From: a virus
DNA length: 47,782 bases
IMG/VR virus record: IMGVR_UViG_3300007363_000029
Location: 1-47,782 of that record
Strand: one strand, 5' to 3'
Positions 543 to 18,558 of this stretch are shown here, in pieces; the first letter of the stretch is position 1; each line of letters starts with the position of its first letter. Position numbers and translations under genes: made by a program. A model generated the notes under the pieces. It searched no databases and was not told where the DNA came from. It was given only the letters and a program-made list of their open reading frames with translations.

Positions 543-899
543 ATGGCATTTCCAGCAACGTACAACATTAACTACTACAAGGGTGACACCTATTCATTTG
601 AGATTTCACCAAAAGATGCTGCTGGCGCAGTTTTTCCTTTAACTGGATATACACCAAGCATGATGATTGCTTCTGCCAGAGATCATGCACCAGATTTCTC
701 TATTACAGCAACAGCAGATTTTAATGATCCTACACAGAGAACTACTATTATTTGCACTATTACACCAACAATAGGAAGACAATTAACAGCAGGAACACAA
801 TATGTTTACGATGTTCAAATTGCAAAAACAGATGATTCTGAAGTATATACACTGCTTACTGGCACCATTTCTGTAACTGCAGATGTAACGGGAGCATAA
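543..899 (+). CDS. LtfC-like / BppU N-terminal-like tail adhesion protein
   Basis: This 118-residue, beta-rich protein has the N-terminal pattern 'Y-KGD-x-x-SF-x-I-x-x-x-D-x-x-G', followed by alternating short strands and a late 'LTAGTQYVYDVQI' motif. The pattern is typical of the small LtfC/baseplate-upper-protein-like domain that precedes or sits beside fibres in phages of Gram-positive bacteria. A clear relative of similar size (134 aa) is encoded at 6822. AGGAGG lies 5 nt before the ATG, making the start secure. The gene probably encodes a structural adaptor joining fibres to the baseplate. Family assignment is from pattern recognition, not a profile search. Confidence 0.6.
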   Translation: MAFPATYNINYYKGDTYSFEISPKDAAGAVFPLTGYTPSMMIASARDHAPDFSITATADFNDPTQRTTIICTITPTIGRQLTAGTQYVYDVQIAKTDDSEVYTLLTGTISVTADVTGA

Positions 900-2857: not shown

Positions 2858-3493
2858 ATGGCACTTACAAACAAAGAAACATCTGGAAAAGTAGCATACA
2901 TGTATGATCAGGAAACTGACAAGTGGTATGCAATAACTGGTGCAGTAAATACTAATGCTGCATATAATTGGACTGCTACACAAACCTTTGATGCCACATC
3001 AATTTTTAATACAGTTGTAAATTTTAATGATGTTGTTTTTTCAAAGGCTGGCATTAATAATTTTGCAACTACCGCAGCAAGAGATGCTGCAATAACATCT
3101 CCTGTTGAGGGCCTTACCTGTTATATTAAAGAAACAGACGAAATTCAATTTCATGACGGATTAAGATGGAGAAACTATTCTGATAATACAATTACTTCAT
3201 CTAAAACAACATCTTTTACATTAGATTTTGCAGATGCAGGTAGAAGTCTTAAGTGTGATTCATCACTAGATATTGTAATTACAATTCCTGTAGCATCTAC
3301 TGTAAATTTTGCAATTAACTCAAGATTAGATATATTGCGTTTAGGCTCTGGCAATGTTTCTGTTACCCCAGATTCTGGAGTTACACTTTTAAGTAAAAAT
3401 AATAATAGAAAGATTGCTGCACGTTATTCTGGTGCTACCTGTATAAAAATTGATACAAACACCTGGATTTTAATTGGTGATTTGACGGCTTAG
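2858..3493 (+). CDS. Tail fibre with C-terminal 'TNTWI-GDLTA' domain, cassette A
   Basis: This is a 211-aa fibre protein. Residues about 117-211 form a beta-rich domain ending in 'DTNTWILIGDLTA'. The same domain, ending 'DTNTWIVSGDLTA', closes the fibre encoded by 10765-12225, and the two align end to end. In phage fibres this domain usually caps a trimeric shaft. The middle contains a 'YIKETDEIQFHDGLRWRNY' strand pair like those in other fibre proteins. It begins 1 nt after the previous stop and ends 8 nt before a Hint-domain gene, the same gene order as in the second cassette. Confidence 0.65.
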   Translation: MALTNKETSGKVAYMYDQETDKWYAITGAVNTNAAYNWTATQTFDATSIFNTVVNFNDVVFSKAGINNFATTAARDAAITSPVEGLTCYIKETDEIQFHDGLRWRNYSDNTITSSKTTSFTLDFADAGRSLKCDSSLDIVITIPVASTVNFAINSRLDILRLGSGNVSVTPDSGVTLLSKNNNRKIAARYSGATCIKIDTNTWILIGDLTA

Positions 3494-3501
3494 GTGATCT
3501 G

Positions 3502-4965
3502 ATGCTCGGATTTTTAGGTAAATGGGCTGGATCAAAGGGAATGGGAAAAATTCCTAACCTTGTCGGACTTACAAGAGAACAGGCAAAGGCAGCAATTTCT
3601 GCTGCTGGATTTAATTTTAGAAACGAAGTTTCAAGAACAGATTCTGAAGGCGCAAACTCATCTAATGATGGCAAGGTAAAATCTCAGTCCAAGAATGCCG
3701 ATGACCTAGAGGACTACGAATCCGAAATTGATTTTGATTATTACACATATGTTCAAAATACTCAAAACACTCAGAATACTCAAAATACAATTCAAAATAC
3801 TCAAGCAACACAGAATACTCAAAACACCCAAGCAACACAAAACACTCAGGCAACACAGAATACTCAAAACACCCAAGCAACACAAAATACACAAAACACT
3901 GCATGTCCTACTCACTGGGGAGATTGGTTAGACCTAGGAGTTGAAACTACATATGGCTGTGATGGACTTTATTTTGTTGAAAGAAGTGTACTTAGTCAAG
4001 CACGTTTTGAATATGATTGTAATAATAACTGGACATGGGGAGTCGAAACTAGAGAAGTTGGAACACCAACAACTACTAAAACATTAGTTAATGGTCAATG
4101 TGGATATGATTCTCAAAACACACAGAATACTCAGAATACTCAGGATACACAAAACACACAAAATACTGTATGTCTGGAGGACTTCATACCATCTGGAACA
4201 GTTTATCGCTCAGAGTGTTGTGGAAATGCTGTTAAATTAAGATATGTTGATTGTAATGGTCAGGTAACAAATACATATGTGTATGAATGTATAAGTTCAT
4301 GCTATACACAAGACACTCAAAATACCCAAAATACCCAGGCTACCCAGGCTACCCAGAATACTCAGAATACTCAGGCTACCCAGAATACTCAGAATACCCA
4401 GAATACTCAAAATACTCAGGCTACCCAGGCTACCCAGAATACTCAAAATACTCAGAATACACAAAATAGCGGTGGCGGTGGCTATGGAGGATGCTTTGTT
4501 TATGGTACAGAGGTATTACTAGCAAACGGTACATGGAAAAAAATAGAAGACTTAATAATTGGCGATGAACTTAAATCATTATCAATTCCAGACTTACCGC
4601 TAGATGAGTCTTCAAATTATCTAAATACTTGGTCTACCAATAGTATTAATGATGTATCGTACTCAACAACCTTTGTTACAAATACAAAGCATGATGGATA
4701 TACTCAATACTATAAAATTAATGACAGTATTAATATAACATTTGAACACTTTGTGTTTGCTAAAAAAGACGGTATTTGGGCATTTAGACAGGTACAGTCA
4801 CTAAATATTGGAGATAGCATATTAAATGAAGATTGCGACATAATTGATATCACATCTATTGATATTATTAATAGCGTAGTCCAAACAGTAAATATCGATA
4901 CAGAACTTACCGATGTTTATTTTGTTAGAGGCATGCTTGCCCACAACTTTATGATAGCCAAGTAA
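3502..4965 (+). CDS. PASTA - NTQ-repeat stalk - Hint domain protein, cassette A
   Basis: This 487-aa protein has four parts. Residues about 17-84 match a PASTA domain ('IPNLVGLTREQAKAAISAAGF', then KV-SQS), a fold that binds peptidoglycan stems in Gram-positive kinases and penicillin-binding proteins. Three Asn-Thr-Gln/Ala-Thr-Gln repeat blocks follow (residues 85-133, 205-222, 269-322), separated by two Cys-rich modules that could form disulfides. After a Gly-rich linker, residues 331-482 form a Hint (hedgehog/intein) domain with nucleophile Cys331 after GG, block B Thr413/His416, and His481-Asn482 near the end. The residue after Asn is Phe, not Cys/Ser/Thr, so this is a bacterial-intein-like processing domain, not a splicing intein. 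Self-cleavage is inferred. RBS is AGGTGAT. Confidence 0.75.
   Translation: MLGFLGKWAGSKGMGKIPNLVGLTREQAKAAISAAGFNFRNEVSRTDSEGANSSNDGKVKSQSKNADDLEDYESEIDFDYYTYVQNTQNTQNTQNTIQNTQATQNTQNTQATQNTQATQNTQNTQATQNTQNTACPTHWGDWLDLGVETTYGCDGLYFVERSVLSQARFEYDCNNNWTWGVETREVGTPTTTKTLVNGQCGYDSQNTQNTQNTQDTQNTQNTVCLEDFIPSGTVYRSECCGNAVKLRYVDCNGQVTNTYVYECISSCYTQDTQNTQNTQATQATQNTQNTQATQNTQNTQNTQNTQATQATQNTQNTQNTQNSGGGGYGGCFVYGTEVLLANGTWKKIEDLIIGDELKSLSIPDLPLDESSNYLNTWSTNSINDVSYSTTFVTNTKHDGYTQYYKINDSINITFEHFVFAKKDGIWAFRQVQSLNIGDSILNEDCDIIDITSIDIINSVVQTVNIDTELTDVYFVRGMLAHNFMIAK
3754..4467 (+). repeat. Three blocks of Asn-Thr-Gln tripeptide-coding repeats
   Basis: Nine-nucleotide units coding NTQ (with some ATQ and single DTQ or IQ variants) occur at 3754-3900, 4114-4167 and 4306-4467. 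Codon choice varies within blocks (CAA/CAG, ACT/ACC/ACA, AAT/AAC), so the repeat is kept at protein level and is not a fresh DNA slippage product, although block 3 is more uniform in its ACCCAG/ACTCAG use. Confidence 0.9.
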
Positions 4966-4977
4966 CGGAGATATAAA

Positions 4978-5565
4978 ATGAAAAAAGAAATTCTAGACAA
5001 CAGGATAGTTGCTTATACAGATTTTTTAGAAGATCCAATGTCTTTGGTAAACGATGTTGAAAATCTTCAAAAAAAATATAATTTAGACTATGTTGCAAGT
5101 ACAATAAATAATTATGAGGAAGATAGACATAAAGTTACATCTACCGCTTTTTGGTTGCACACACATCCAAACGATTATACTGTTGGACCAGAGTTTGTTC
5201 AAGATAAACAATTGTTGAATGCAAAAATTGATAAAATAATTTTTGAACCTTTTATGGATTATATTAAATCTTTTTCTCCAGGAATCTCTGAACGTGAACG
5301 TTGGGGGCTAGTCAGATATGAAGATACAGAATTTTTAACATGGCATACAGATGGAGATGCAAAAAATAAAAGAAAAGTATCTTTTGTATTTTATATAAAT
5401 GATGATTATGAAGGTGGAGAGGTTGAGTTTAAAAACTTCATTGGATCGCCCTATAAACCCAAAAAAGGTACCCTGTTGATGTTTCCATCTTTTCCAGAGT
5501 ACCTTCATAGGGTTGTACCAATAACAAATGGTACAAAGTACGTTTTTATATCGTTTGCTGTTTAA
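4978..5565 (+). CDS. 2OG-Fe(II) oxygenase, prolyl-4-hydroxylase type
   Basis: This 195-aa protein has the double-stranded beta-helix signature of prolyl 4-hydroxylase-like dioxygenases. His123 and Asp125 ('WHTDGD') give the HxD metal motif, followed by 'FVFYINDDYEGGEVEF', a 'KKGTLLMFPS' strand, distal His177 ('YLHRV') and Lys187 ten residues later for 2-oxoglutarate. All key positions are present, so it should be active. The substrate is unknown. It sits 12 nt after the Hint-domain gene with a GGAG ribosome site, so a role in hydroxylating virion adhesins is a reasonable guess. It meets the minus-strand lysozyme gene tail to tail with overlapping stops. Confidence 0.85.
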   Translation: MKKEILDNRIVAYTDFLEDPMSLVNDVENLQKKYNLDYVASTINNYEEDRHKVTSTAFWLHTHPNDYTVGPEFVQDKQLLNAKIDKIIFEPFMDYIKSFSPGISERERWGLVRYEDTEFLTWHTDGDAKNKRKVSFVFYINDDYEGGEVEFKNFIGSPYKPKKGTLLMFPSFPEYLHRVVPITNGTKYVFISFAV

Positions 5566-6149
5566 TTTGGGAACTGCTTCATGAGTTCTTTTGTTTTTGG
5601 TGTTAGTCCATGCCAAGAAGACCAATCATCCCCACCATGTGACATATAAAATGCAATATCGGCATTTAATACTGGGTTGAATAATTCAGCATTGGCGGTT
5701 AGATTAAACTTTTCTCTACGATCTGGACCAAGGTCGCCAATCATATTAATTTGAAATAGTCCAAATGAACTATCTCCAGTTCTATGGCTTTGGTTTAAAG
5801 CCAAAGGTCTTCCATTAGATTCTTTTTTAGCAACAGCCCAGGCCTCTACAAGGTGCTTTCCTCTAAAACCAACTGCCCATAACAAATCCTTTAATTCAAG
5901 GTCTGTAAGTTTTGTATAGTTTCGATATTTTGCTAATTTATCTTCTGCCCTAGAAACAACTAAAGCCTCTTCCGAGGCCGAAGATGCTGCCGAAGGTTGA
6001 TCTGTACTTATATTATTATTCACAAGCACGTCTGTATTATTATTCACAAGCACGTCTGTTGCGTTTGCAGAGTTTGACCATACAGCAAACATCAAAAGAA
6101 TGCTGAGTACGCCAATGATTTGCTTCTTATCATTCATAAAGTTAATCAT
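5562..6149 (-). CDS. Secreted lysozyme-like / lytic transglycosylase-fold cell-wall hydrolase
   Basis: This is the only minus-strand gene in the window. The start at 6149 is chosen because AAGGAGG lies 5-6 nt upstream; a start at 6176 would place that site inside the gene. The 195-aa product has a signal peptide (basic 'MNDKK', hydrophobic 'IIGVLSILLMFAVW', cleavage near ANA30). A linker with the eight-residue repeat 'DVLVNNNT/DVLVNNNI' follows, then a lysozyme-like domain with probable catalytic Glu110 ('AKKESNGRPLALN'), 'SSFGLFQINM' (127-136) and 'DIAFYMSHGGDDWSSW'. These are hallmarks of the goose-type/SLT lysozyme superfamily. It probably cuts peptidoglycan outside the membrane, either as a lysis enzyme or during infection. 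Confidence 0.75.
   Translation of the reverse strand: MINFMNDKKQIIGVLSILLMFAVWSNSANATDVLVNNNTDVLVNNNISTDQPSAASSASEEALVVSRAEDKLAKYRNYTKLTDLELKDLLWAVGFRGKHLVEAWAVAKKESNGRPLALNQSHRTGDSSFGLFQINMIGDLGPDRREKFNLTANAELFNPVLNADIAFYMSHGGDDWSSWHGLTPKTKELMKQFPN
6012..6059. repeat. 24-nt tandem duplication in the lysozyme linker
   Basis: Two perfect 24-nt copies (6012-6035 and 6036-6059) encode the repeated octapeptide DVLVNNNx directly after the signal peptide. Identity at the DNA level suggests a recent duplication. Each copy incidentally contains TTATTCACA. Confidence 0.9.
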
Positions 6150-6172
6150 AGTTTCCTCCTTAGAAACAAACA

Positions 6173-6190
6173 GCACCTTTTAAGGGGTGC
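6173..6190 (-). promoter_or_regulatory. Hairpin in the lysozyme mRNA leader
   Basis: A 5-bp GC-rich stem (GCACC 6173-6177 with GGTGC 6186-6190) lies between the predicted transcription start near 6197 and the AAGGAGG site at 6155-6161. It could stabilise the mRNA 5' end. There is no U-tract, so it is not a terminator. Confidence 0.4.
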
Positions 6191-6203
6191 CATATTACTT
6201 CTT

Positions 6204-6233
6204 AGTATAACATCCTTTGATTTTGTTTGTCAA
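6204..6233 (-). promoter_or_regulatory. Strong sigma-70-type promoter for the lysozyme gene
   Basis: Read on the minus strand, a perfect TTGACA (6233-6228) is followed after 18 nt by TATACT (6209-6204), with a TG extension one base before the -10. This is the only promoter seen here with a perfect -35 hexamer. It drives the lone minus-strand gene. Confidence 0.75.
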
Positions 6234-6249
6234 GTCCTAAAATCAATTG

Positions 6250-6258
6250 TGGTATAAT
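6250..6258 (+). promoter_or_regulatory. Extended -10 promoter, probable leaderless transcript
   Basis: TGGTATAAT is followed nine nucleotides later by the ATG at 6268, with no Shine-Dalgarno sequence. Transcription should start within a few bases of the A of the ATG. Confidence 0.65.
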
Positions 6259-6267
6259 AAAAACACT

Positions 6268-6798
6268 ATGGCTGGTCAATCTTCTAATTTTTCATTACCA
6301 TATCCTACCGCCGATGACGCTGTAAATGTGCATGGGGATATTAAAAAACTAGTAGATCAACTGAATATTATACTTCCCCCACTTGGTATTTCTGCATTTC
6401 AACTTGAAGCAACTAATGTGACAGACATCACAATACCAGCAGGGTATCCAGTATATATAACAGGATATTCTAACCTATCTAGCAAACCAACAATTGAACC
6501 ATCATTACCAACAACAACTAAACCAGTTTTGGGAATTACTAAAGAATCTATTGCAAAAGATCATAGCGGTGTAGTTGTTGTTGCTGGAGTATTAGAAAAT
6601 GTAGATACCCATTCATTTCAGGATGGAGATGTACTATATGTTAAATCTGGTGGGGGCTTAACAAATATTAGGCCAACAAATGGTGCTGCTGCCGTTGGGG
6701 TTGTGGCTCACGCAGCATATGCAGTTGATAATGGTATTATAATTGTAGAGGCAAAGGGGAACGGTACTTGGGGTGCATTGAAAAATGGACTTTCATAA
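6268..6798 (+). CDS. Virion fibre/base protein at the head of cassette B (leaderless)
   Basis: This 176-aa protein starts at the ATG at 6268. An upstream in-frame TTG at 6247 overlaps the promoter and is unlikely to be used. The N-terminus ('SNFSLPYPTADDAVNVHGDIKKLVDQLN') is helical and could be a virion-docking segment. The remainder is a beta-rich domain ('PVYITGYSNLSSKPTI', 'GVLENVDTHSFQDGDVLYV', 'AVGVVAHA') of the kind found in phage fibre and decoration proteins. The final 'NGTWGALKNGLS' resembles fibre ends. No enzymatic motif is visible. It opens the second fibre cassette and is probably a fibre-network subunit. Confidence 0.5.
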   Translation: MAGQSSNFSLPYPTADDAVNVHGDIKKLVDQLNIILPPLGISAFQLEATNVTDITIPAGYPVYITGYSNLSSKPTIEPSLPTTTKPVLGITKESIAKDHSGVVVVAGVLENVDTHSFQDGDVLYVKSGGGLTNIRPTNGAAAVGVVAHAAYAVDNGIIIVEAKGNGTWGALKNGLS

Positions 6799-6806
6799 AT
6801 CGTTAA

Positions 6807-6815
6807 TGGTATAAT
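6807..6815 (+). promoter_or_regulatory. Extended -10 promoter, leaderless spacing
   Basis: TGGTATAAT ends exactly 6 nt before the ATG at 6822, with no ribosome site. The A of the ATG falls at the expected +1. Confidence 0.65.
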
Positions 6816-6821
6816 TAAATT

Positions 6822-7226
6822 ATGGCGGTATTAAGAACAACTACTATTACATCTACGCAAGCAACAAATGCTGCAGGTGAAATTCCTGTTGGTGCAATTC
6901 CACCAAAAGTAAGATGGACAGTTGTTAAAGGCGATAGCGCATCTTTTAGAATTTATGTAGAAGATGATAATGCAAATGCAATTAACCCAGAAGATTATAC
7001 AATCAAAGCAGATTTCCGCAGAGGTACAGCATTATTGTTTTCAACAAATCCATCAAAAACTGAATTTGATAGCAATGGAGAATTTACAGTATATCTTACT
7101 CCAGCACACTGCAAGCAATTAGCAACAGGAGATATTTTTGACGTTCAACTATCAGATTCTGTAGTTGTTTGGACTGTTTGTAGAGGAGTAATGACAGTTA
7201 TTGATGAAGTAACTGATCGTGAATAA
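6822..7226 (+). CDS. LtfC-like / BppU N-terminal-like protein, cassette B (leaderless)
   Basis: This 134-aa protein carries 'VKGDSASFRIYVEDDNANAI', the same KGD-x-x-SF-x-I pattern as the 118-aa protein at 543. A similar strand order and a late 'LATGDIFDVQL' match that protein's 'LTAGTQYVYDVQI'. The two are probably paralogues, one per fibre cassette, and both lie near the start of a run of fibre genes. A baseplate-to-fibre adaptor role is inferred from the family. It has no Shine-Dalgarno sequence and its own -10 box at leaderless spacing. Its stop overlaps the next ATG (TAATG). Confidence 0.6.
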   Translation: MAVLRTTTITSTQATNAAGEIPVGAIPPKVRWTVVKGDSASFRIYVEDDNANAINPEDYTIKADFRRGTALLFSTNPSKTEFDSNGEFTVYLTPAHCKQLATGDIFDVQLSDSVVVWTVCRGVMTVIDEVTDRE

Positions 7227-7483
7227 TGGCAAAGCAGGTTGTAACCACAATAACGAGTGCAGCCTTAGTAGGATTAGCAACACTTAATCCAATAGGCGAA
7301 ATTACTAACCTAGATAGTCGATATGTCGAGGTTGAACTAACACAAGCACCCAAAAAGGTATTAGTAAATGAATACTTACCTTTTAAACTTAGAATTTCCA
7401 ATGTAGTTTTAGATGGCTACACTAGGAAAAATCCAGCAGGGATCGGAGTGGCTATTATTGGACACAGCAATTACATTCTGTGA
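7226..7483 (+). CDS. Small hypothetical fibre-cassette protein
   Basis: This 85-residue protein overlaps the end of the preceding gene by one base (TAATG). It looks like a compact beta-sandwich or beta-barrel ('RYVEVELTQAPKKVLVNEYLPFKLRISNVVLDGYTR') with a hydrophobic C-terminus. I do not recognise the family. Its place between an LtfC-like protein and fibre proteins, with no independent promoter, suggests a structural partner in the same assembly. Confidence 0.5.
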   Translation: MAKQVVTTITSAALVGLATLNPIGEITNLDSRYVEVELTQAPKKVLVNEYLPFKLRISNVVLDGYTRKNPAGIGVAIIGHSNYIL

Positions 7484-7490
7484 AAAATAA

Positions 7491-7499
7491 TGCTATAAT
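7491..7499 (+). promoter_or_regulatory. Extended -10 promoter, leaderless spacing
   Basis: TGCTATAAT ends 6 nt before the ATG at 7506 and no ribosome-binding sequence is present, the same geometry as at 6807. Confidence 0.65.
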
Positions 7500-7505
7500 T
7501 CATAC

Positions 7506-7952
7506 ATGGCAAAGTTATCATTATCATTAGTCAAGAATAAATTTCAAACTGGAGATCGTCCTACACAGGAAGATTATGAGCATTTAATTGACTCAGTATC
7601 TGCTCAAGCAACAGATCTTGGCACATCAGGCAATAACGAAAATACAATCAACGGAATAGAGAACGCTACAGTCATCGATAACTTTAGTGCATCCGACTGG
7701 CGTATGGTTAAGTACCTTGTTTCTCTATCTATGACAGCATCAGGAAACAATAAATTCTATGCTACAGAAATTACAGTTTTAGTTGACGGTAATAACATTA
7801 ACGTCAGCGAATATGGCACAATAGACAATGATGGGAATATTGGCACCATTAGCGTCTCAAGGACTGGAAATACCGTCGCTTTAACAGTGACTCCAGATCC
7901 TGCAATTACGCCAGTCACAGCACGTTTTGCACGTATTGGACTTAAGGCATAA
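7506..7952 (+). CDS. Short fibre protein sharing the C-terminal beta domain of the next gene (leaderless)
   Basis: This 148-aa protein has a short helical start ('RPTQEDYEHLIDSVSAQ') followed by a roughly 90-residue beta domain. That domain's pattern ('ATEITVLVDGNNINVSEYGTI', 'DGNIGTISVS', 'ALTVTPDP') matches the C-terminus of the 753-aa fibre at 7967 ('SEVLVTKDDNGNVAITEYAIV', 'NGILGDISAEF', 'SLTVNAVN'). Such domains terminate many phage tail proteins. The shared ending suggests domain shuffling between neighbouring fibre genes. It has a leaderless-type promoter. Confidence 0.6.
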   Translation: MAKLSLSLVKNKFQTGDRPTQEDYEHLIDSVSAQATDLGTSGNNENTINGIENATVIDNFSASDWRMVKYLVSLSMTASGNNKFYATEITVLVDGNNINVSEYGTIDNDGNIGTISVSRTGNTVALTVTPDPAITPVTARFARIGLKA

Positions 7953-7966
7953 ATAAGGAGATAAAA

Positions 7967-10228
7967 ATGGCAACAGTAAATAAAAACTTTAAAATCAAAC
8001 AAGGACTCATTGTCGAAGGTAGCGAGGCTACCGTAGCAGGTAATGATATCCTTACAAAGAAGCAAGCAGACCAAGATTACATTGTTAATCTTGCTGGTGG
8101 CGGTGCTTCAACTTCTAACGAACCTAATAAGGTTGTAAAGCGTGACGCAAATGGTAATTTTGCAGCAGGAACAATCAATGCAGATCTTGTTGGTGATGTA
8201 ACTGGTGATTTAACTGGTAATGCAGATACAGCAACTGCTCTTGAGACTGCTCGTACAATTGAATTGACTGGAGACATAACAGGTTCTGCATCATTCGACG
8301 GTACATCAAATATTCAAATTCAAGCATCACTAGATGCAGACTTTGCAACAGATGCAGAAGTTGCAACAGCAAAGTCAGAAGCAATCAGCGATGCAGGAAC
8401 ATATACAAATGCACAAATTTCTACAGAGGTTACAAATCGTAACTCTGCAATCGCAACTGCTAAGTCAGAAGCAATTTCAGCAGCATCAACAGATGCTACA
8501 AATAAGGCTAACGCTGCAGAATCAAGTGCAAACTCACACACAAATGATGAAATTACTGCACTAGATCTTTCTCTTAAGTCATATGCAGATCAAGCAGAAT
8601 CCGACGCAATTAGTGCAGCAGCAACTGATGCAACATCAAAGGCTAATGCAGCACAGGCTGCAGCAATTGCAACCGCTTCAACAGATGCTACTACTAAGGC
8701 TAATGCAGCACAGGCTGCAGCAATTGCAACCGCCTCAACAGATGCTACTACTAAGGCTAATGCTGCTCAAGCAGCAGCAGAAGCAACTGCCTCAGCAGAT
8801 GCTACTACTAAGGCTAATGCAGCACAGGCTGCAGCAGAGGCGACTGCAAATGCAGCAAATGTAGCACTTTATTCAACAGTAACAACAGATATTGCAACTG
8901 CTAAGGCTGCAGCAATCTCTGATGCAAATGCTCATGCAGATGCAGCAGTCGCTGCACTTGTTGATTCAGCACCTGCAATGCTAGACACACTTAATGAATT
9001 AGCAGCAGCAATTGCTGATAATCCAAATTATGCTACAGACGTAACAAATCTTGTTGCAACTAAGGCTGATAAAACATATGTAGATTCAGAAATCTCTGAT
9101 CTTGATACAGCAGCACAGGGCTATGCTTCAGATGCACAATCTGCAGCAGAAACATTTGCTACAAATGCAGATTCAGCACTTTATATCACAGTAACTGATG
9201 ACATTGCAACAGCAAAGTCCCAAGCAGAAGAAACAGCACAAGGATATGCTGACACAGCAGAAGATAATGCAATCGCTGCAGCAGCACTAGACGCTACAGC
9301 AAAGGCTAACGCTGCTCAATCTGCAGCAGAGGCTACCGCAGCATTGGATGCAACCTCAAAGGCTAACGCAGCAGAAGCAGCAGCAAACTCATATACAAAT
9401 ACAGAAATTACACAAGAAGTTGCAGATAGAAACTCTGCAATTTCATCAGCAATTTCTAGCGAGGTAACTAATAGAAACTCTGCAATTTCTGCAGCAGTTC
9501 AACAAGAAGTTACAGATAGAGATTCTGCAATTACCATTGCAATTAGTAATCTAAATACATCAGTTGGTGGAGATTTAGATGCTGCAATTGCTCAAGAAGT
9601 TTCAGATAGAAACTCTGCAATTGAATCAGCAGTAAATGCAATTGACACAGATGCTATTGAAGAAGGTCTAAATAATCTTTACTTCACAGAATCTCGTGCA
9701 CAGGCTGCAGTTGCTGGTAATATTCAAACAGCAGTAACAGACGCAGTTGATGCAATTAATACTGACGCTATTGAAGAAGGTTTAAATAATCTTTACTTCA
9801 CAAACCAAAGAGCACTTGATGCTGTAGGTGGAGACATTAATAATGCAATCGCTGCAGGTAACTCAAGCGCATCACCTACATACCAAGAGATTAACTTTAC
9901 TTGGGCAACTAAGCAAATTGGTACATATACATGGGTTCCAAACTCAGGTATTACAACAGTTTATGAATGGAATGGTAACTCATTCCCAGCAGCGAAGTTC
10001 CTAGTAAGAGTTCGTGAAGGACAGCATTCACAGGTTTCCGAAGTTCTTGTAACTAAGGATGATAATGGAAATGTTGCTATCACAGAATATGCTATCGTTC
10101 ATACAAATGGAATTCTTGGAGATATCTCTGCAGAATTTGCCAACGGTACATACTCATTAACAGTAAATGCAGTAAATAATTCAACAGAGGTTATCGTATC
10201 AGGCATGTTGCTTGCATACGGCGACTAA
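7967..10228 (+). CDS. Long Ala-rich tail fibre shaft protein
   Basis: This 753-aa protein begins 'MATVNKNFKIKQGLIVEG', a docking-type N-terminus nearly repeated in the next gene. A 'GNADTATALETARTIELTGDITGSASFDGTSNI' type fibre repeat follows, then several hundred Ala/Asp/Ser/Glu-rich residues, including 19-residue repeats. Tail-fibre repeats ('SAPAMLDTLNELAAAI') and two copies of 'DAIEEGLNNLYFT' come next. The last 100 residues or so are the beta domain shared with the protein at 7506. The Ala-rich part probably forms a trimeric coiled or helical rod. RBS is AAGGAG seven nucleotides before the ATG. Confidence 0.8.
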   Translation: MATVNKNFKIKQGLIVEGSEATVAGNDILTKKQADQDYIVNLAGGGASTSNEPNKVVKRDANGNFAAGTINADLVGDVTGDLTGNADTATALETARTIELTGDITGSASFDGTSNIQIQASLDADFATDAEVATAKSEAISDAGTYTNAQISTEVTNRNSAIATAKSEAISAASTDATNKANAAESSANSHTNDEITALDLSLKSYADQAESDAISAAATDATSKANAAQAAAIATASTDATTKANAAQAAAIATASTDATTKANAAQAAAEATASADATTKANAAQAAAEATANAANVALYSTVTTDIATAKAAAISDANAHADAAVAALVDSAPAMLDTLNELAAAIADNPNYATDVTNLVATKADKTYVDSEISDLDTAAQGYASDAQSAAETFATNADSALYITVTDDIATAKSQAEETAQGYADTAEDNAIAAAALDATAKANAAQSAAEATAALDATSKANAAEAAANSYTNTEITQEVADRNSAISSAISSEVTNRNSAISAAVQQEVTDRDSAITIAISNLNTSVGGDLDAAIAQEVSDRNSAIESAVNAIDTDAIEEGLNNLYFTESRAQAAVAGNIQTAVTDAVDAINTDAIEEGLNNLYFTNQRALDAVGGDINNAIAAGNSSASPTYQEINFTWATKQIGTYTWVPNSGITTVYEWNGNSFPAAKFLVRVREGQHSQVSEVLVTKDDNGNVAITEYAIVHTNGILGDISAEFANGTYSLTVNAVNNSTEVIVSGMLLAYGD
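8642..8848 (+). repeat. 57-nt tandem repeats in the fibre shaft
   Basis: Units start at 8642, 8699, 8756 and 8813, exactly 57 nt (19 codons) apart, coding ANAAQAAA-x-ATAS-x-DATTK. The first two are nearly identical at DNA level and the later ones drift. Unit gain or loss here would change fibre length in frame. Confidence 0.9.
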
Positions 10229-10248
10229 TTTTTGATAAGGGGTAGATA

Positions 10249-10704
10249 ATGGCTACAGTAAATAAAGACTTCAGAGTAAAAAATGGCCTACAGGTCAATG
10301 GCACTGGTAGTTTCGGAGGTGCTGTCGTAGTTGGTACGCCAACTATTTCAACACACGCTGCTACTAAAGAATACGTAGATTCTAATTCAGGTGCAGTTGT
10401 AGCAGGATCTACCCCTCCATCAGAACCAACAAATGGAAAGATGTGGCTAGATACATTAACAAAAAGAGTTAATGTTTATTATGATGGTGTTTGGTATACC
10501 CAAGCAACTATTGATGATACTCAAAATCTTCCACAACACATTCACGATACAGCAATCGATGGAACAGGATTTATTGTTACTACCTTCCGTGAGGGTGGAA
10601 GTTTCAATAGCCCACTGGGTCAGGGATTTGATGGTGGTGGACCAGATACACAATCTTGGGACGTTACCGCAGATGGTGGCTCACCAATTGATAACTTCAA
10701 CTAA
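10249..10704 (+). CDS. Short tail fibre with shared N-terminal docking segment
   Basis: This 151-aa protein opens 'MATVNKDFRVKNGLQVNG', almost the same as the 753-aa fibre ahead of it, so both probably attach to the same virion site. It carries 'ATKEYVDSN', a common fibre repeat, and the WLDT/VNVYYDGVWY motif seen in many phage fibres. The C-terminus is Gly/Asp-rich ('GQGFDGGGPDTQSWDV'). It looks like a short version of the longer fibre, with a different tip. The ribosome site is AAGGGG. Confidence 0.65.
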   Translation: MATVNKDFRVKNGLQVNGTGSFGGAVVVGTPTISTHAATKEYVDSNSGAVVAGSTPPSEPTNGKMWLDTLTKRVNVYYDGVWYTQATIDDTQNLPQHIHDTAIDGTGFIVTTFREGGSFNSPLGQGFDGGGPDTQSWDVTADGGSPIDNFN

Positions 10705-10711
10705 AAATTGA

Positions 10712-10720
10712 TGTTATAAT
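10712..10720 (+). promoter_or_regulatory. Extended -10 promoter
   Basis: TGTTATAAT lies 44 nt before the ATG at 10765. The leader keeps an AAGGAG ribosome site at 10750-10755. Confidence 0.55.
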
Positions 10721-10764
10721 AAGAAAAGTAAAAGATGGGTAGCACCCATAAGGAGATAAAGAAT

Positions 10765-12225
10765 ATGGCAACAAGAATGCAGCAACGCAGAGGTACTGCT
10801 CAGCAATGGACTGATGCAGACCCAATTTTGGCAGCAGGAGAAATTGGATTTGAAACAGATACCAGCCAATTTAAGATTGGTGACGGCGTTAACGCATGGT
10901 CAGACCTCTCCTACTTCAAGAATTTAGAAGACCTAGGTGGAACACTCGATGATTATGTTCCGCTTACAGAAAAGGGTGTGCCAAATGGTGTGGCAACACT
11001 TAACTCAGTCGGAAGAATCCCACTTGGTCAATTAGCAGACCTTGTAGATTCAGCACCAGAAGCATTAGATACTCTTAAGGAAATTGCAGATGCAGTTCAG
11101 GCTGCACAAACAGCCCTTACCAATACTGAAGGAGCATTATCAGTACACAATGCTCTTACAGAAAGTGTTCACGGTATTGCAGATACAGCAGAGTTAGTAA
11201 CAAATGCTAATCTTACAACTGCACTTGAGACAACAATTCAATCTGCAGTAGATTTATCTGCAGACTCACTATCAGCACACAATGCAAGCCACAATGTTCA
11301 CGGTATTGCAGACACAACAGTTCTTGTTACAACAACTGCTATGAACGATGCAATTGATGATGCAGTAGCAATTGGAGTAAACGATGCAGTTAGTCAAGCA
11401 ACAGCAACCGCAGCAGCAGATGCACAATCAAAAGCAACTGCAGCACTTACTGCAGCAGGTGTAGCAACATCAGCAGCAATTTCAGATCATAATGCAGATA
11501 AGACAAATGTTCATGGTATCTCTAATACAGATGACCTTGTTTATACAAATGACTCACGTCTATCAGATACACGTACACCATCTGATGAATCTGTAACAGA
11601 TGCTAAGATCAGTGGAACACTATCACAAAATAAGATTACAAGTCTTACATCAGATCTTGCAGCAAAAGCAGCACTGGCTTCACCAACATTTACTGGTACA
11701 CCAGCAGCACCAACTGCAACAGCAGGAACAAATACTACACAAATTGCAACAACAGCATTCGTAACTGGTGCAGTTTCAGATTTAGTAGCATCTGCTCCAT
11801 CAACCCTTAATACACTTAATGAGTTGGCTGCAGCACTTGGTAATGACGCAAACTATGCAACAACAATTACAAATGCACTTGCAGCAAAGGCAAGTAAGAC
11901 AGAACTTGATGCAGCAACATTATCATCATTCAATGCACAAGCATCAAGTTATACACTTGCACTTTCAGATGCAACAAATATGGTAGAAATGACAGGATCA
12001 AGTGCTAATACAGTAACTATTCCTACAAATGCCTCAGTGGCATTCCCAGTCGGAACTGCTATCGATATTTTCCAACGTGGAACAGGACAGACAACAATTG
12101 CTGCAGCAGCAGGAGTTACAGTTCTTTACACACCAGGTTTGAAATTACGTGCTCAGTACTCTGCAGCAACAGCAATCAAGCGTGATACAAACACTTGGAT
12201 CGTTTCAGGCGACTTAACAGCATAA
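10765..12225 (+). CDS. Tail fibre with Mtd-like N-terminus and 'GDLTA' C-terminal domain, cassette B
   Basis: The start at 10765 is supported by AAGGAG nine nucleotides upstream; an in-frame ATG at 10735 has no such site. The 486-aa protein begins 'MATRMQQRRGTAQQW', with 'LAAGEIGFETDTSQFKIGDG', the N-terminal domain first known from the Bordetella phage tropism determinant and widespread in fibres. The shaft has repeats such as 'VHGIADT' and 'SAPSTLNTLNELAAALGND'. Residues 393-486 match the C-terminal domain of the fibre at 2858, ending 'TNTWIVSGDLTA'. It is followed by a Hint-domain gene, as is that other fibre. Confidence 0.8.
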   Translation: MATRMQQRRGTAQQWTDADPILAAGEIGFETDTSQFKIGDGVNAWSDLSYFKNLEDLGGTLDDYVPLTEKGVPNGVATLNSVGRIPLGQLADLVDSAPEALDTLKEIADAVQAAQTALTNTEGALSVHNALTESVHGIADTAELVTNANLTTALETTIQSAVDLSADSLSAHNASHNVHGIADTTVLVTTTAMNDAIDDAVAIGVNDAVSQATATAAADAQSKATAALTAAGVATSAAISDHNADKTNVHGISNTDDLVYTNDSRLSDTRTPSDESVTDAKISGTLSQNKITSLTSDLAAKAALASPTFTGTPAAPTATAGTNTTQIATTAFVTGAVSDLVASAPSTLNTLNELAAALGNDANYATTITNALAAKASKTELDAATLSSFNAQASSYTLALSDATNMVEMTGSSANTVTIPTNASVAFPVGTAIDIFQRGTGQTTIAAAAGVTVLYTPGLKLRAQYSAATAIKRDTNTWIVSGDLTA

Positions 12226-12252
12226 TTTAAATACGAAAAGGGGAAGATATAA

Positions 12253-13632
12253 ATGGGAATTATTAGAAGAGGCGGTAAAGCATCTAAGGCTGCTAAGCAG
12301 ACTATTAGATACTGGGGTATTCAACCAGCAGACCCAGTTATTACATCAGTAGTACGTGTTGGAGTATCCTACCTTAGTGGTGATTATGATGTATATTTCA
12401 TGCCAGGAGGCGGTGTCGGTGCTACAGCATCATCATACACAATCACTGCTTCTAATGCAACATATGGAGATAGAACTTTTACAGCAACAACTTCTCCTTA
12501 TAGAGTTACAGGGCTACGTTCTGGAGCATCCTGGACATTTAAGATTAAGGCCAATGCAACAATTGGACAATCAAATACATCAGTAACTTCAACAGAAGTT
12601 TCTGGTGGATCACAAGACGTTACTGGTCTTCCAGGAAAGCCTGCAGCACCATCAGCATCTTCTCCATCGAACGTATCATACGATACAGTTTCATGGTCTG
12701 CACCTGAAAATGGTGGATCTGCAATTACAGGATATCAATGGGAATCTAACGACGGTAAGTCTGGAACAACCTCATCAACATCTGTAAACGTAAACCAAGA
12801 AGGTGGAACAGCACAAGCATATCGTGTACGTGCACAGAACTCTGATGGTTATGGAGAATGGTCTGACTATTCATCAAGCACTACAACATTTTCATTCGTA
12901 CCTTTCTCAGTATTTGGATTCTCACCATTCGGTGTATTCGGATTCTCACCATTTGGTGTGTTTGGATTCTCTCCATTTGGATTCTCACCATTTGGCGTGT
13001 TTGGATTCTCACCATTTGGCGTGTTCGGTTTCTCACCATTCGGATTCTCTCCGTTCGGTGTATTCGGCTTCTCACCATTTGGTTTTTCACCATTCGGTGT
13101 ATTCGGTTTCTCACCATTCTCATTCGGAGGATGCGTTGATGAAAATACATTAATCTCAGTTGTTACTGAAACTGGTGGATATGGAACAAAGCCAGCAAGT
13201 GAAGTTCAGCCTGGAGATGAAGTATGGGGTGTTGTATGGGCTGAGTACCTAGATGAAGGATTTGATTCTTCACTAGAATGGTCTTCCCCAACAATTACAA
13301 ATCTAGAACTACGTAAAACAAAGGTTATTTCTAAGACACCACAACCAAAAACTGTAACAATGACAATTAATGGAGAGGCTTCTAAGAAGTTCTCACTTAA
13401 TCAGCCAATTCTTACAAAGCGCAATGGTGCTTATATGTACGTTCTATCAGGTTCATTAGAACCAGGAGATCACGTAATTGAATATTCATATGAGCATGAT
13501 GCCTTCTCTGAAGTACTAATTCAAACAGTACAACAGATTGAAGGAGATGCAAATACATTTAGATTTGACTGTGAAGATGCTGATACATTCATTGCAGCAA
13601 ATCTAGTTATGCACAATCTGAAGTACTATTAA
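12253..13632 (+). CDS. Fn3-Fn3 - Phe-rich FSPFG repeat - Hint domain protein, cassette B
   Basis: This 459-aa protein has a basic N-terminus, two fibronectin type III-like domains (about residues 28-114 and 127-210, the second with 'GSAITGYQWESNDG' and 'YRVRAQNSDGYGEWS'), then 81 residues (213-293) of FSPFGVFG and FSPFG units. It ends in a Hint domain: Cys294 after GG, 'VQPGDEVWG' in block A, and His454-Asn455 four residues from the end. The usual block B T-x-x-H is replaced by Ser381-Leu-Asn-Gln384. The terminal Asn is followed by Leu, so protein splicing is not expected. Autocleavage is inferred and may be partial given the missing His. RBS is AAGGGG. Confidence 0.75.
   Translation: MGIIRRGGKASKAAKQTIRYWGIQPADPVITSVVRVGVSYLSGDYDVYFMPGGGVGATASSYTITASNATYGDRTFTATTSPYRVTGLRSGASWTFKIKANATIGQSNTSVTSTEVSGGSQDVTGLPGKPAAPSASSPSNVSYDTVSWSAPENGGSAITGYQWESNDGKSGTTSSTSVNVNQEGGTAQAYRVRAQNSDGYGEWSDYSSSTTTFSFVPFSVFGFSPFGVFGFSPFGVFGFSPFGFSPFGVFGFSPFGVFGFSPFGFSPFGVFGFSPFGFSPFGVFGFSPFSFGGCVDENTLISVVTETGGYGTKPASEVQPGDEVWGVVWAEYLDEGFDSSLEWSSPTITNLELRKTKVISKTPQPKTVTMTINGEASKKFSLNQPILTKRNGAYMYVLSGSLEPGDHVIEYSYEHDAFSEVLIQTVQQIEGDANTFRFDCEDADTFIAANLVMHNLKYY
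12889..13131 (+). repeat. FSPFGVFG-coding repeat tract
   Basis: Six octapeptide units (FSPFGVFG) and three pentapeptide units (FSPFG) fill 81 codons, 31 of them Phe. Synonymous codons vary (TTC/TTT, CCA/CCG, TCA/TCT), which argues for selection on the peptide. The same DNA read in other frames gives long spurious ORFs on both strands. Confidence 0.9.
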
Positions 13633-13662
13633 AATTTAATAAATAGTCGGGGGATATTGAGA

Positions 13663-14383: not shown

Positions 14384-14406
14384 AGTAAAGTCGAATGGAG
14401 ACAAAA

Positions 14407-15919: not shown

Positions 15920-17950
15920 ATGTCAGATTTTTTTAGTTTTCGTTTACCAGATGAGTTCATCAATGAGTATAAAATCAAGGAGTCGCCTTTTGGTTTTGTA
16001 GACGCTGGTAATAATTCTTTGGGAGAGATTACGTTTATTCGTACCTACTCCCGTATGAAGGATGATGGAACTAAGGAAAGATGGCATGAGGTTTGCCGTC
16101 GTGTGATTGAGGGTATGTACTCAGTTCAAAAGAACCATGCCAAAGAAAATCGTCTACCATGGAATGACTATAAGGCTCAGTCATCTGCCAAGGAAGCATT
16201 TGATAGAATGTTTAATCTTAAGTGGACACCCCCAGGACGTGGTATGTGGACATTTGGTACAGCCATGACAATGGAAAAGCGCAACTCTGCTGCTCTTCAA
16301 AATTGTGCAATGGTATCAACAAAAGATTTAGATAAGAATGATCCAGGAGCACTATTTGCTTGGGTTATGGATGCTCTCATGCTTGGTATTGGTGTAGGGT
16401 TTGATACCGTTGGTCAGGAAAAGAATTTTACAATCTATGAGCCAACTGAGCCAGTACAGATTTATGAAATTCCAGACACTCGTGAAGGATGGGTAGAATC
16501 TATTAGACTTCTTCTTAATTCATTCCTGAGAGCAAATCAAAATATACAAGAATTTAACTATGACCTCATCCGTCCACTAGGAACACCAATTAAGGGCTTT
16601 GGAGGGGTTGCCAGCGGTCCAGAACCATTGATTCGTCTACATAACTCTATCCGCAATGTAATTGGCTCTAGGGCTGGACAGATACTAGATTCAAGAGCAA
16701 TTGTTGATATTGTTAATCTAATTGGAACATGCGTAGTTGCAGGAAATGTTCGTAGATCGGCAACCCTTGCTTTGGGTGCATCTGGAGATGAAGATTTTAT
16801 TAATCTTAAGAATGCTGAAGTTTTCCCAGAACGCAATTCATTTGATTCAGAAAATCCAGGTTGGGCCTGGATGTCTAATAATTCAATTTCAGCAACAGTT
16901 GGAATGGATTATGATAAATACACAGATTTAATTGTTAATAATGGAGAGCCAGGTTTTATCTGGTTAGATGTTGCTCGTAATTATGGTCGTTTGGCAGATC
17001 CAGCAGATGGAAAAGATTATCGTGTTATGGGCTTTAATCCATGTGCTGAGCAACCGCTAGAATCATATGAACTTTGTACATTAGTAGAGGTTCATTTAAA
17101 TAGACATGAATCTAAAGAAGATTTCTTGAGAACATTAAAATTTGCCTATCTTTATGGCAAGACAGTAACGCTTCTTCCAACACACTGGCAACAGACAAAT
17201 GGAATTATGCAACGCAACCGCCGTATTGGAACATCCCTAACTGGTATTGCATCATTTGCAGATCAGAAAGGTTTGCCAGCAGTTCGTGAATGGATGGATG
17301 AGGGATATCAAACAATTCGTAAATATGACCGTCAATATTCAGAGTGGCTATGTGTTCGTGAATCGATTCGTGTAACAACTGTTAAGCCATCTGGTTCTGT
17401 ATCTATTCTTTCTGGTGCAACACCTGGAGTTCACTGGGGTCCTGGAGGTAACCACTTCCTTCGTGCAATTAGATTTGGAAATACAGATCCAATGATTCAC
17501 TTGTTCAGCGCAGCAGGATATAAAATTGAAAAAGATGTTGTTTCAGCAAATACATCTGTAGTATATTTCCCAGTTAAATCTGGACACCCACGTTCCGAAA
17601 AAGACGTGACGCTATTTGAAAAGATTGCACTTGCAGCAACTGCACAAAAGTATTGGTCAGACAATGGTGTTTCTGTAACTCTTTCCTTTGATAAGGAAAC
17701 GGAAGCAAAGCATGTTGCCCCAGCACTACATATGTATGAGGGACAACTAAAGGCTGTATCATTCCTTCCAATGGGAAATACAGTATATCCACAACAACCA
17801 TATACTCAGATTTCTGAAGAAGAGTATAACAGTTATATTGGACAGATCAAAAAGATTGATTTTTCTGCTATTTATGAAGGTGTGGATAACTTGGAAGCAA
17901 TGGGTGAGGCATACTGCACAACCGATGCATGCGAGATTAAGATAGGATAA
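15920..17950 (+). CDS. nrdJ: Adenosylcobalamin-dependent ribonucleoside-triphosphate reductase (class II)
   Basis: This 676-aa protein matches the monomeric class II reductases (Lactobacillus RTPR type). It has 'TPPGRGMWTFGT' near residue 103, Cys129 in 'NCAMVSTKD', 'FNPCAEQPL' with radical-bearing Cys375 and Glu377, Cys386 in 'ELCTLVE', and a C-terminal 'YCTTDACEIK' redox pair (Cys666, Cys671). It converts ribonucleoside triphosphates to deoxy forms in one chain using vitamin B12, without oxygen or a second subunit. Phages use it to supply dNTPs. No intein or truncation is seen. It is embedded among structural genes, with its own promoter and a strong ribosome site. Confidence 0.95.
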   Translation: MSDFFSFRLPDEFINEYKIKESPFGFVDAGNNSLGEITFIRTYSRMKDDGTKERWHEVCRRVIEGMYSVQKNHAKENRLPWNDYKAQSSAKEAFDRMFNLKWTPPGRGMWTFGTAMTMEKRNSAALQNCAMVSTKDLDKNDPGALFAWVMDALMLGIGVGFDTVGQEKNFTIYEPTEPVQIYEIPDTREGWVESIRLLLNSFLRANQNIQEFNYDLIRPLGTPIKGFGGVASGPEPLIRLHNSIRNVIGSRAGQILDSRAIVDIVNLIGTCVVAGNVRRSATLALGASGDEDFINLKNAEVFPERNSFDSENPGWAWMSNNSISATVGMDYDKYTDLIVNNGEPGFIWLDVARNYGRLADPADGKDYRVMGFNPCAEQPLESYELCTLVEVHLNRHESKEDFLRTLKFAYLYGKTVTLLPTHWQQTNGIMQRNRRIGTSLTGIASFADQKGLPAVREWMDEGYQTIRKYDRQYSEWLCVRESIRVTTVKPSGSVSILSGATPGVHWGPGGNHFLRAIRFGNTDPMIHLFSAAGYKIEKDVVSANTSVVYFPVKSGHPRSEKDVTLFEKIALAATAQKYWSDNGVSVTLSFDKETEAKHVAPALHMYEGQLKAVSFLPMGNTVYPQQPYTQISEEEYNSYIGQIKKIDFSAIYEGVDNLEAMGEAYCTTDACEIKIG

Positions 17951-17952
17951 CC

Positions 17953-18558
17953 ATGAAACTTATTGGAAATTTTATAAGCCAAGAAGATTTAAAAACAGTA
18001 CAAGAATATATTGCTACAATCAAATTCAACACAAGAGAAGATCACGATCCGCTACACGATGCGCTATTTGATAACGAGGGTACAAAGTTTGACATTCATA
18101 CACGTGGAGAGATGCCAGATCATATTCTACAAATATTTTCAAAGTATTCAAGAGGTTTTTATGAGGCAGTTCAATCAGAATCAGAACTAGACTATCACCC
18201 ACCAATGTTTTCAAAACACTATATTGCACGTTATAGAAATGGTGGAGAATCAGAGCCACATTTTAATATGGAAAAACCAGCACACACATTTGGTTCTTAT
18301 ATTGTTTGGCAAAATGCAAAGTCTGGTGGACATATTATGTTTCCAAATCGCAATCTTGAAATTGCTGCCACCCCAGGCGACTTATTTATTTTTGAAGAGT
18401 CTGAACAGGATAAACATGGCATTAGCCCAATTCTCGAAGGAGAGATGTTTGTATCTGAAGCATGGATGGGAACAAAAGGTCAGTTGTGGATGCCTAACAG
18501 AACTCCATACGAACAGGTTCAATGGGACGACTGGGAAATAAAAGGCTTTCATGATTGA
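17953..18558 (+). CDS. 2OG-Fe(II) oxygenase fold with lost ligands (possible pseudoenzyme)
   Basis: This 201-aa protein follows the reductase by 2 nt. It aligns with the oxygenase encoded next: 'IARYRNGGESEPHFNMEKP', 'GSYIVWQNAKSGGHIMFPNRNLEIAATPGDLFIFEES', 'KHGISPILEGEMFVSEAWM'. The HxD motif is His103-Phe-Asn105, and the position of the 2OG-binding Arg, ten residues after distal His155, is Met165. With the Asp ligand and the Arg both changed, normal dioxygenase activity is doubtful. It could be a binding partner of the active neighbour or an enzyme with different chemistry. Confidence 0.65.
   Translation: MKLIGNFISQEDLKTVQEYIATIKFNTREDHDPLHDALFDNEGTKFDIHTRGEMPDHILQIFSKYSRGFYEAVQSESELDYHPPMFSKHYIARYRNGGESEPHFNMEKPAHTFGSYIVWQNAKSGGHIMFPNRNLEIAATPGDLFIFEESEQDKHGISPILEGEMFVSEAWMGTKGQLWMPNRTPYEQVQWDDWEIKGFHD

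Follow-up and report, generated by a model that had tools for sequence, protein, structure and literature searches.

We describe here two gene pairs of the virus record IMGVR_UViG_3300007363_000029 in IMG/VR, positions 1 to 47,782 of which (47,782 bases, the window) carry a tailed-phage structural module with a portal, a head protease and a tape measure of 2391 amino acids. In each pair, a fibre that ends in a domain called GDLTA here (P0001, P0003) is followed directly by an adhesin (P0002, P0004), and both adhesins end in a Hint domain with a very short lysine-containing tail. The gene order, the modularity of the adhesins, the Hint fold and a Cys/Ser - Asn - Lys pattern are observed. The explanation that we favour, with slightly less than even confidence, is that a terminal BIL-type Hint would process the end of the stalk with the tail lysine as acceptor, within a two-part receptor-binding unit whose docking and trimers are presumed. 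The intein-like domain probably cuts or re-joins the end of the adhesin, and the lysine behind it is a hint that phages with such adhesins may weld their own adhesin tips.

Because neither Hint domain came up to the Pfam cutoff, profile and fold comparisons were needed. A P0004-type alignment matched the P0002 Hint with an hhalign E-value of 3e-9, and P0002 and P0004 are the only open reading frames (ORFs) of the window that have a Hint by profile. A joint Hint profile matched CthBIL4 (2lwy) with an E-value of 7e-12, and BIL2 was among the top profile matches; the P0004-type profile by itself was weak (0.0011 to a RadA intein). The AlphaFold model of the P0004 Hint (residues 291-459) is confident, with block means of 77-95, and it was matched with Z scores of 16-18 to mini-inteins (18), BIL2 (18.1), Hedgehog (17.5) and CthBIL4 (16.6 for 2lwy). 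By profile and model, the two C-terminal domains can be assigned to the Hint/intein fold superfamily and appear BIL-like. Both adhesins end, as a preliminary description of this DNA had read from the letters, in a GG-Cys Hint with Asn and 4-5 further residues, namely Cys331 to Asn482 plus FMIAK in P0002 and Cys294 to Asn455 plus LKYY in P0004. They share with BIL domains Cys at position 1, the terminal Asn and the absence of a nucleophile at +1 (Phe and Leu, respectively), and their catalytic sets differ at block B, which has His416 in P0002 and Gln384 in P0004. Self-processing of P0002 and P0004 by these domains is plausible.

The following sets of Hint ORFs have been used for examining these residues; loci are given by L numbers. 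The discovery set started from 148 Hint ORFs, of which 119 were C-terminal and formed 33 clusters at 70% identity; ORFs were left out if the Hint match was shorter than 100 residues or if the profile match was followed by over 30 residues (over 60 in validation). Tail counts are based on 32 of the 33 clusters, since L221 is a truncated ORF. The validation set was collected with another alignment, built from the discovery Hints, and clusters that shared more than 70% identity with earlier ones were dropped: of 87 Hint ORFs, 68 were terminal, 22 fell into old clusters and 46 formed 13 new clusters.

Of the 31 discovery clusters fused to another protein part, 27 have Cys and 4 (L056, L078, L134 and L144) have Ser at position 1, read by alignment column; all 13 validation clusters have Cys or Ser there, so that one or the other is present in 44/44 fused clusters. 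Stand-alone Hint proteins (L110 and phage NCTB) have no position-1 nucleophile and no stalk to release. The pair HN was found in 26/26 Cys1 clusters with a readable end versus 2/6 others (p 4e-4). The last residue is Asp in L056 and L078 and Glu in L144, all three without HN; since Ser at position 1 and terminal Asp are known in inteins, according to PMC7664689, L056 and L078 need not be dead. Block-B His is present in 20 of the 27 Cys1 discovery clusters and in 11 of the 13 validation clusters. All seven Cys1 discovery clusters without it, the P0004 type included, are GDLTA-linked, and it is absent from all five Fn3-type clusters. Some inteins splice without this His (PMC7664689), and P0004 may be slower or inactive. 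Only 4/38 Cys1+HN clusters of both sets have C, S or T at +1, and therefore splicing of the usual type is not expected.

Every terminal Hint examined has a lysine in its tail. It stands no more than 10 residues after the end of the Hint in 32/32 discovery clusters (118/118 ORFs), where 10.4 ± 2.6 clusters were expected from length-matched, mechanically read C-termini of 400 other ORFs and none of 20,000 draws exceeded 21. Arginine was not enriched (5 observed versus 7.3 expected). In the validation set, the lysine was present in 13/13 new clusters and 46/46 ORFs (4.5 clusters expected; product of background chances, 5e-7). It was also present in 6/6 further jumbo-phage proteins related to that of AD1; here the Lys at +6 is changed to Gln in two, and the Lys at +9 is kept in all six. 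Because the clusters are of common ancestry, these probabilities are guides, yet the tails vary in length, from 1 to 26 residues, and carry the lysine at different places.

Other arrangements of Hint domains were also seen. A stand-alone Hint protein with the tail lysine kept is encoded in L110/L111 (5695-6222), near a Hint-less adhesin in L110, and another in L009 (6480-6941, NCTB), adjoining a Hint tail protein; both are possible helpers in trans. Tandem Hints occur in L282, L316 and L328, where a second Cys-type Hint stands directly behind the HN of the first. In L176-L191, large structural proteins have long stalks of INT/VNT/IDT triplets and a run of three to five Gly (GGG to GGGGG) ahead of the Hint Cys; the idea of the stalk is the same as that of the NTQ stalk of P0002, and a GDLTA neighbour is mostly absent.

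The partners of the Hint were counted in IMG/VR contigs sampled by GDLTA domain (80 loci), PASTA start (46 loci, of which 45 have an ORF that could be read and 42 have upstream sequence), Fn3 start (14 loci), P0004-type Hint (16 loci) and P0002-type Hint (80 loci, 44 of which together have 45 C-terminal Hint ORFs, 41 of these with context). Loci of the separate scans overlap, and the PASTA counts and the counts of genes following GDLTA include redundant loci. No ORF was read in L151, which is left out of the PASTA count, and L109, L123 and L128 are left out of the upstream context; L140, whose Hint piece belongs to a different ORF, and L110/L111, where the Hint has a gene of its own, were treated as Hint-less. 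A GDLTA fibre lies upstream of the PASTA adhesin in 42/42 cases, at 5-31 nucleotides, while a Hint is present in 10/45, many of the others having Cys-rich ends. Thus the N-terminus of the adhesin, and not the Hint, goes with the fibre. In the P0002-type Hint scan, a GDLTA fibre was upstream of 7/41 C-terminal Hint ORFs, and all seven have a PASTA start. Among the 33 Hint clusters, GDLTA was upstream in 13/13 with PASTA or Fn3 start versus 1/19 of those with other starts and context (p 4e-8); since the start classes were set post hoc and some clusters were found via GDLTA, the PASTA and P0002-type Hint scans are the fairer tests.

These counts do not bear out the proposal of the preliminary description that a GDLTA fibre and a Hint form a conserved unit. 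In the co-occurrence check that it had called for, fibre and Hint genes are each tied to the adhesin gene and not to each other, and co-occurrence of Hint and GDLTA as a functional link is rejected. The modular adhesin system that it had also proposed is supported. The adhesin of L112 is a hybrid in which a PASTA start is combined with a Hint that is most similar to the P0004 type (38% identity to P0004; 20-27% for the other Hint-only rows of the alignment). On another contig, a Fn3-like adhesin (L018, by eye) and a PASTA adhesin (L141) stand side by side, both Hint-less, and the layout in two cassettes is therefore independent of Hint tips. LtfC-like genes and 2OG oxygenases are present beside adhesins with and without Hint. 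Two things that were merged by gene order are now apart, namely the fibre-adhesin pair, which is set by the adhesin N-terminus, and the exchangeable tip. When genomes were scanned by PASTA start, a single weak match was obtained (25% identity, E 3e-5), and Hint matches were found in 9/398 genomes of the phylum of that match.

The two fibres have in common an end domain of about 95 residues, as had been noticed before, with 40% identity between P0001 and P0003; a profile built from both and their relatives matched only these two ORFs in the window. In the AlphaFold model of P0001, residues 111-211 have block means of 88-97. The best solved match of the GDLTA model is the C-terminal domain of the Pa223 capsid spike (9ny6; Z 15.3 over 99 residues, with a root mean square deviation of 1.9), followed by a Klebsiella phage baseplate protein (10.4), CBA120 TSP4 (8.3-8.8; 8.7 for 7rfo) and T4 gp9 (1qex; 8.2); searching PDB sequences with the GDLTA alignment yielded no useful match. 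The matched range of TSP4, 80-184 in 7rfo, starts behind the Gly76-79 linker that precedes XD1. XD1 of TSP4 has been described as a gp9-like domain behind this linker, and XD2 and XD3 as binding partner tailspikes. As modelled, the GDLTA domain has a beta fold and resembles the T4 gp9 / TSP4-XD1 module, and a role as a junction would fit the neighbouring gene.

Among GDLTA-ending ORFs with at least 400 nucleotides behind them, pooled from all loci and redundant, 171/178 have a follower of 100 or more amino acids that starts at -35 to +70 nucleotides; the seven without such a follower are in L047, L049-L052, L057 and L062. The followers form 48 distinct groups, start most often at -1, and have a Hint in 9/48. 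In cultured phages, for which nine of 107 matching records were used, the next gene starts within -4 to +54 nucleotides in 9/9. Its annotation is lectin-like in Brevundimonas phage Domovoi, RCC1 in Marinobacter phage PS6 and photosynthesis system II assembly factor in DSL-LC01, and in RcDurkin it is 75 amino acids long. The adhesins behind the GDLTA fibre of four Gordonia phages (L251, L252, L254, L255) share a start of the type xxRFRxxR, which is unlike the LGIIASS start common among IMG/VR contigs.

The order of parts is PASTA, an NTQ stalk with two Cys-rich inserts, GGGGYGG-Cys331, His416, Asn482 and FMIAK in P0002, and a basic start, two Fn3, an FSPFG stalk, FGG-Cys294, Gln384, Asn455 and LKYY in P0004. 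The difference in binding domains and repeats claimed before is borne out, since PASTA of P0002 (28 bits) and fn3 of P0004 (25.7 bits) exceed their Pfam cutoffs of 23.2 and 25, residues 22-214 of the P0004 model were aligned to tandem FnIII pairs with Z 14-14.6, and the stalks have 36 NTQ/ATQ/DTQ triplets and 10 FSPF units, respectively. The FSPFG stalk has a predicted local distance difference test score (pLDDT) below 50. Part-by-part comparisons with relatives cover few pairs and are suggestive only: the Hint changes most between P0004 and L015 (49% identity versus 80-99% for other parts) and has 41% identity to that of L019 (other parts 50-99%), and against L008 it is not the fastest-changing part (95% versus 88-100%). 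In P0002, the first Cys-rich domain varies most against L004 (39%, versus 81% for the Hint), and all parts are 92-100% identical to L003. This first Cys-rich domain, residues 134-205 (3901-4116) within the NTQ stalk, is a candidate receptor-binding site.

The mechanism that we propose may be described as follows. Each cassette would be a two-part receptor-binding unit, composed of a GDLTA-capped fibre of gp9/TSP4-XD1 type and the adhesin encoded directly behind it, which probably sits on the cap via its N-terminal segment. The C-terminal tip of the adhesin would be an exchangeable module, here a BIL-type Hint. Its Cys1 would take over the Gly-Cys bond as a thioester, and the lysine behind Asn, of the same or a neighbouring chain, would attack this thioester, giving an isopeptide-capped or cross-linked stalk. 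Cyclisation of Asn would be optional and could free the Hint. A wider proposal, possible but doubtful, is that phage structural proteins ending in such a lysine-accepting Hint form a large class, so far little described: a Gly-Lys isopeptide at the C-terminus of the stalk, in cis or between the chains of a trimer, would cap fibre tips or lock them covalently, with no need of energy or of partner enzymes, and the tip would be exchanged among adhesins docking on a gp9-like cap.

The main rival explanation, which we consider unlikely, is cleavage alone: the Hint would be a C-terminal aid in folding or trimerisation that cuts itself off by hydrolysis, the lysine serving Asn cyclisation or stability. 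Some tailspikes carry self-removed chaperone tails. The Gly at -1 in 24/27 Cys1 clusters and the stand-alone Hint genes beside adhesin or tail genes (L110/L111, NCTB), which suggest a helper role, agree with this explanation, and BIL domains without a +1 nucleophile yield mainly cleaved products, according to PMC7664689. However, cleavage alone leaves unexplained why lysine and not arginine is invariant, and the fast change of the P0004 Hint against L015 would be odd for a discarded helper, although no such change is seen against L008. Less likely again, and to be considered above all for P0004 without its block-B His, is a non-catalytic tip, in which the Hint fold would have been adopted as a cap for receptor binding or for structure, comparable to the Cys-rich and other tips found in this place. 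Other tips do exchange into the same gene position, the five Fn3-type clusters lack block-B His, L056, L078 and L144 lack HN, and the P0004 Hint is divergent from those of L015 and L019; but the constant Cys or Ser at position 1 and the association of HN with Cys1 speak against it, and P0002 and L004 differ mostly in the first Cys-rich domain rather than in the Hint.

Linkage of the stalk to the adjoining GDLTA fibre, which the preliminary description had suggested from the adjoining genes of both cassettes, is very improbable because GDLTA precedes adhesins whatever their tip, Hint-less ones included, and 34/41 terminal Hint ORFs with context in the P0002-type Hint scan have no GDLTA upstream. 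Least probable of all is a true or decayed splicing intein: the fold is the same, with the Z score of 18 to mini-inteins, but the position is C-terminal with only the short tail behind it, and a +1 nucleophile is absent from 34/38 Cys1+HN clusters.

The following points weigh against stalk processing with lysine as acceptor in a docked two-part unit. Every bond made or cut is inferred. Gln or Glu occupies the block-B position in 7/7 Cys1 discovery clusters without His, P0004 included, and in validation L276 has Gln and L336 has no His. The lysine is found anywhere from +1 to +10. When more than 60 residues follow the Hint, lysine is present in 12/18 distinct tails, so that it is not exclusive to terminal Hints; the count is 4/9 in the validation loci and 8/9 in further tails of the earlier loci, five of these eight being from one family. 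Among cellular non-terminal Hints it is 1/4, counting the four loci with HN and a long part behind; of other cellular loci, L351 is terminal with lysine, L348 ends in HS, and L345-L347 and L350 have their match in the N-terminal part only. Lysine is also kept in stand-alone Hints without the position-1 nucleophile and in clusters ending in KD, YD and WE, and hence another role is possible. The gp9/XD1 match is one of fold alone, and the role of XD1 is described as not fully understood. An N-terminal motif seen post hoc in 26/48 IMG/VR adhesin groups versus 21/1071 other ORFs was rejected as a docking motif, since the same expression, fixed beforehand, matched 1/9 cultured-phage proteins versus 1/74 controls (p 0.21).

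The positions of the features are listed in Table 1. The two gene pairs are where they had been placed, with gaps of 8 nucleotides between P0001 and P0002 and 27 nucleotides between P0003 and P0004; the P0003 ORF has an alternative start at 10735. An LtfC-like gene in each cassette had been described as well; that of the first cassette matches phrog_3304 and phrog_1084, and that of the second matches phrog_1084 only. The statement that tailoring enzymes close each cassette holds for the oxygenase at 4978 and the sulfotransferase at 13657, both above Pfam cutoffs; for the genes at 14395 and 15069, no Pfam match above the cutoff was found. Between both cassettes, a lysozyme-like SLT_3 protein (9e-16) is encoded on the minus strand at 5562-6176. 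A B12-dependent ribonucleotide reductase and a second 2OG-Fe(II) oxygenase are encoded at 15920-17950 and 18551-19060.

Table 1. Positions of genes and domains of the two cassettes in the window.
Feature	Positions	Strand	Evidence or remark
LtfC-like gene (fibre assembly), first cassette	543..899	+	phrog_1084 3.5e-17; phrog_3304 'L-shaped tail fiber protein assembly' 1.2e-5
P0001, short fibre with GDLTA domain at its end	2858..3493	+	GDLTA profile 4e-37
GDLTA domain of P0001, residues 117-211	3206..3490	+	profile range, AlphaFold model, fold matches
P0002 adhesin: PASTA, NTQ stalk and two Cys-rich domains, Hint	3502..4965	+	
P0002 Hint domain, Cys331 to Asn482	4492..4947	+	block-B His416 at 4747-4749
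P0002 tail behind Asn, FMIAK	4948..4962	+	Lys487 at 4960-4962
2OG-Fe(II) oxygenase gene behind P0002	4978..5565	+	PF13640 1.4e-14
LtfC-like gene, second cassette	6822..7226	+	phrog_1084 8.7e-11
P0003, fibre: Mtd_N start, GDLTA end	10765..12225	+	PF18454 1.4e-13; GDLTA profile 1e-38
P0004 adhesin: basic N-terminal segment, two Fn3, FSPFG stalk, Hint	12253..13632	+	
P0004 Hint domain, Cys294 to Asn455	13132..13617	+	block-B position is Gln384, 13402-13404
P0004 tail behind Asn, LKYY	13618..13629	+	Lys457 at 13621-13623
Sulfotransferase-like gene behind P0004	13657..14382	+	PF03567 1.5e-7

Terminal Hints of phage tail proteins have already been annotated as 'contains intein domain' in places (NCTB, Y3). 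On the function of C-terminal Hints of phage adhesins and of their tail lysine, nothing was found by searches of open-licence PMC papers, most subscription papers being outside this scope. The present analysis turns the vague label of an intein-like tail protein into a testable rule, composed of Cys or Ser at position 1, terminal Asn and tail lysine. If the lysine is the acceptor, isopeptide formation by Hint domains has a further natural setting, namely virions, and small ligation domains could be drawn from these phages.

The separate attachment and adhesin proteins proposed here are known also from gp37/gp38 fibre-adhesin pairs and from the branched tailspike complexes of CBA120. T4 gp9, TSP4-XD1 and the C-terminal domain of the Pa223 spike have the same fold as the GDLTA domain (Z 8-15), which differs in being a C-terminal cap with an adhesin gene directly behind. 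Jumbo phages NCTB, AD1, Y3 and Alexandra have intein-domain tail proteins with a C-terminal Hint and an HN + Lys tail as in P0002 and P0004; however, those of NCTB and AD1 have collagen-like N-termini (by eye) and no GDLTA fibre directly upstream. The Hedgehog autoprocessing domain (PDB 1at0) is likewise a C-terminal Hint behind another protein part, but its sterol-recognition region is absent from P0002 and P0004, where the 4-5 residues behind Asn leave no room for it. BIL domains, of which CthBIL4 is one, share Cys1, the HN end and the lack of a +1 nucleophile and have been reported in hypervariable regions of non-conserved bacterial proteins, whereas the phage Hints are at the extreme C-terminus of structural proteins with lysine in a very short tail, and P0004 lacks block-B His. 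BIL2 of the Tetrahymena BUBL1 locus (PDB 6y75, 6tmm) shares the Hint fold and a lysine in its C-terminal flank, with which it has been reported to form an isopeptide bond (PMC8616854). BIL2 is located between ubiquitin-like domains and its lysine is the acceptor in a reported reaction, whereas the phage lysine is 1-10 residues behind the Hint and its role as acceptor is predicted.

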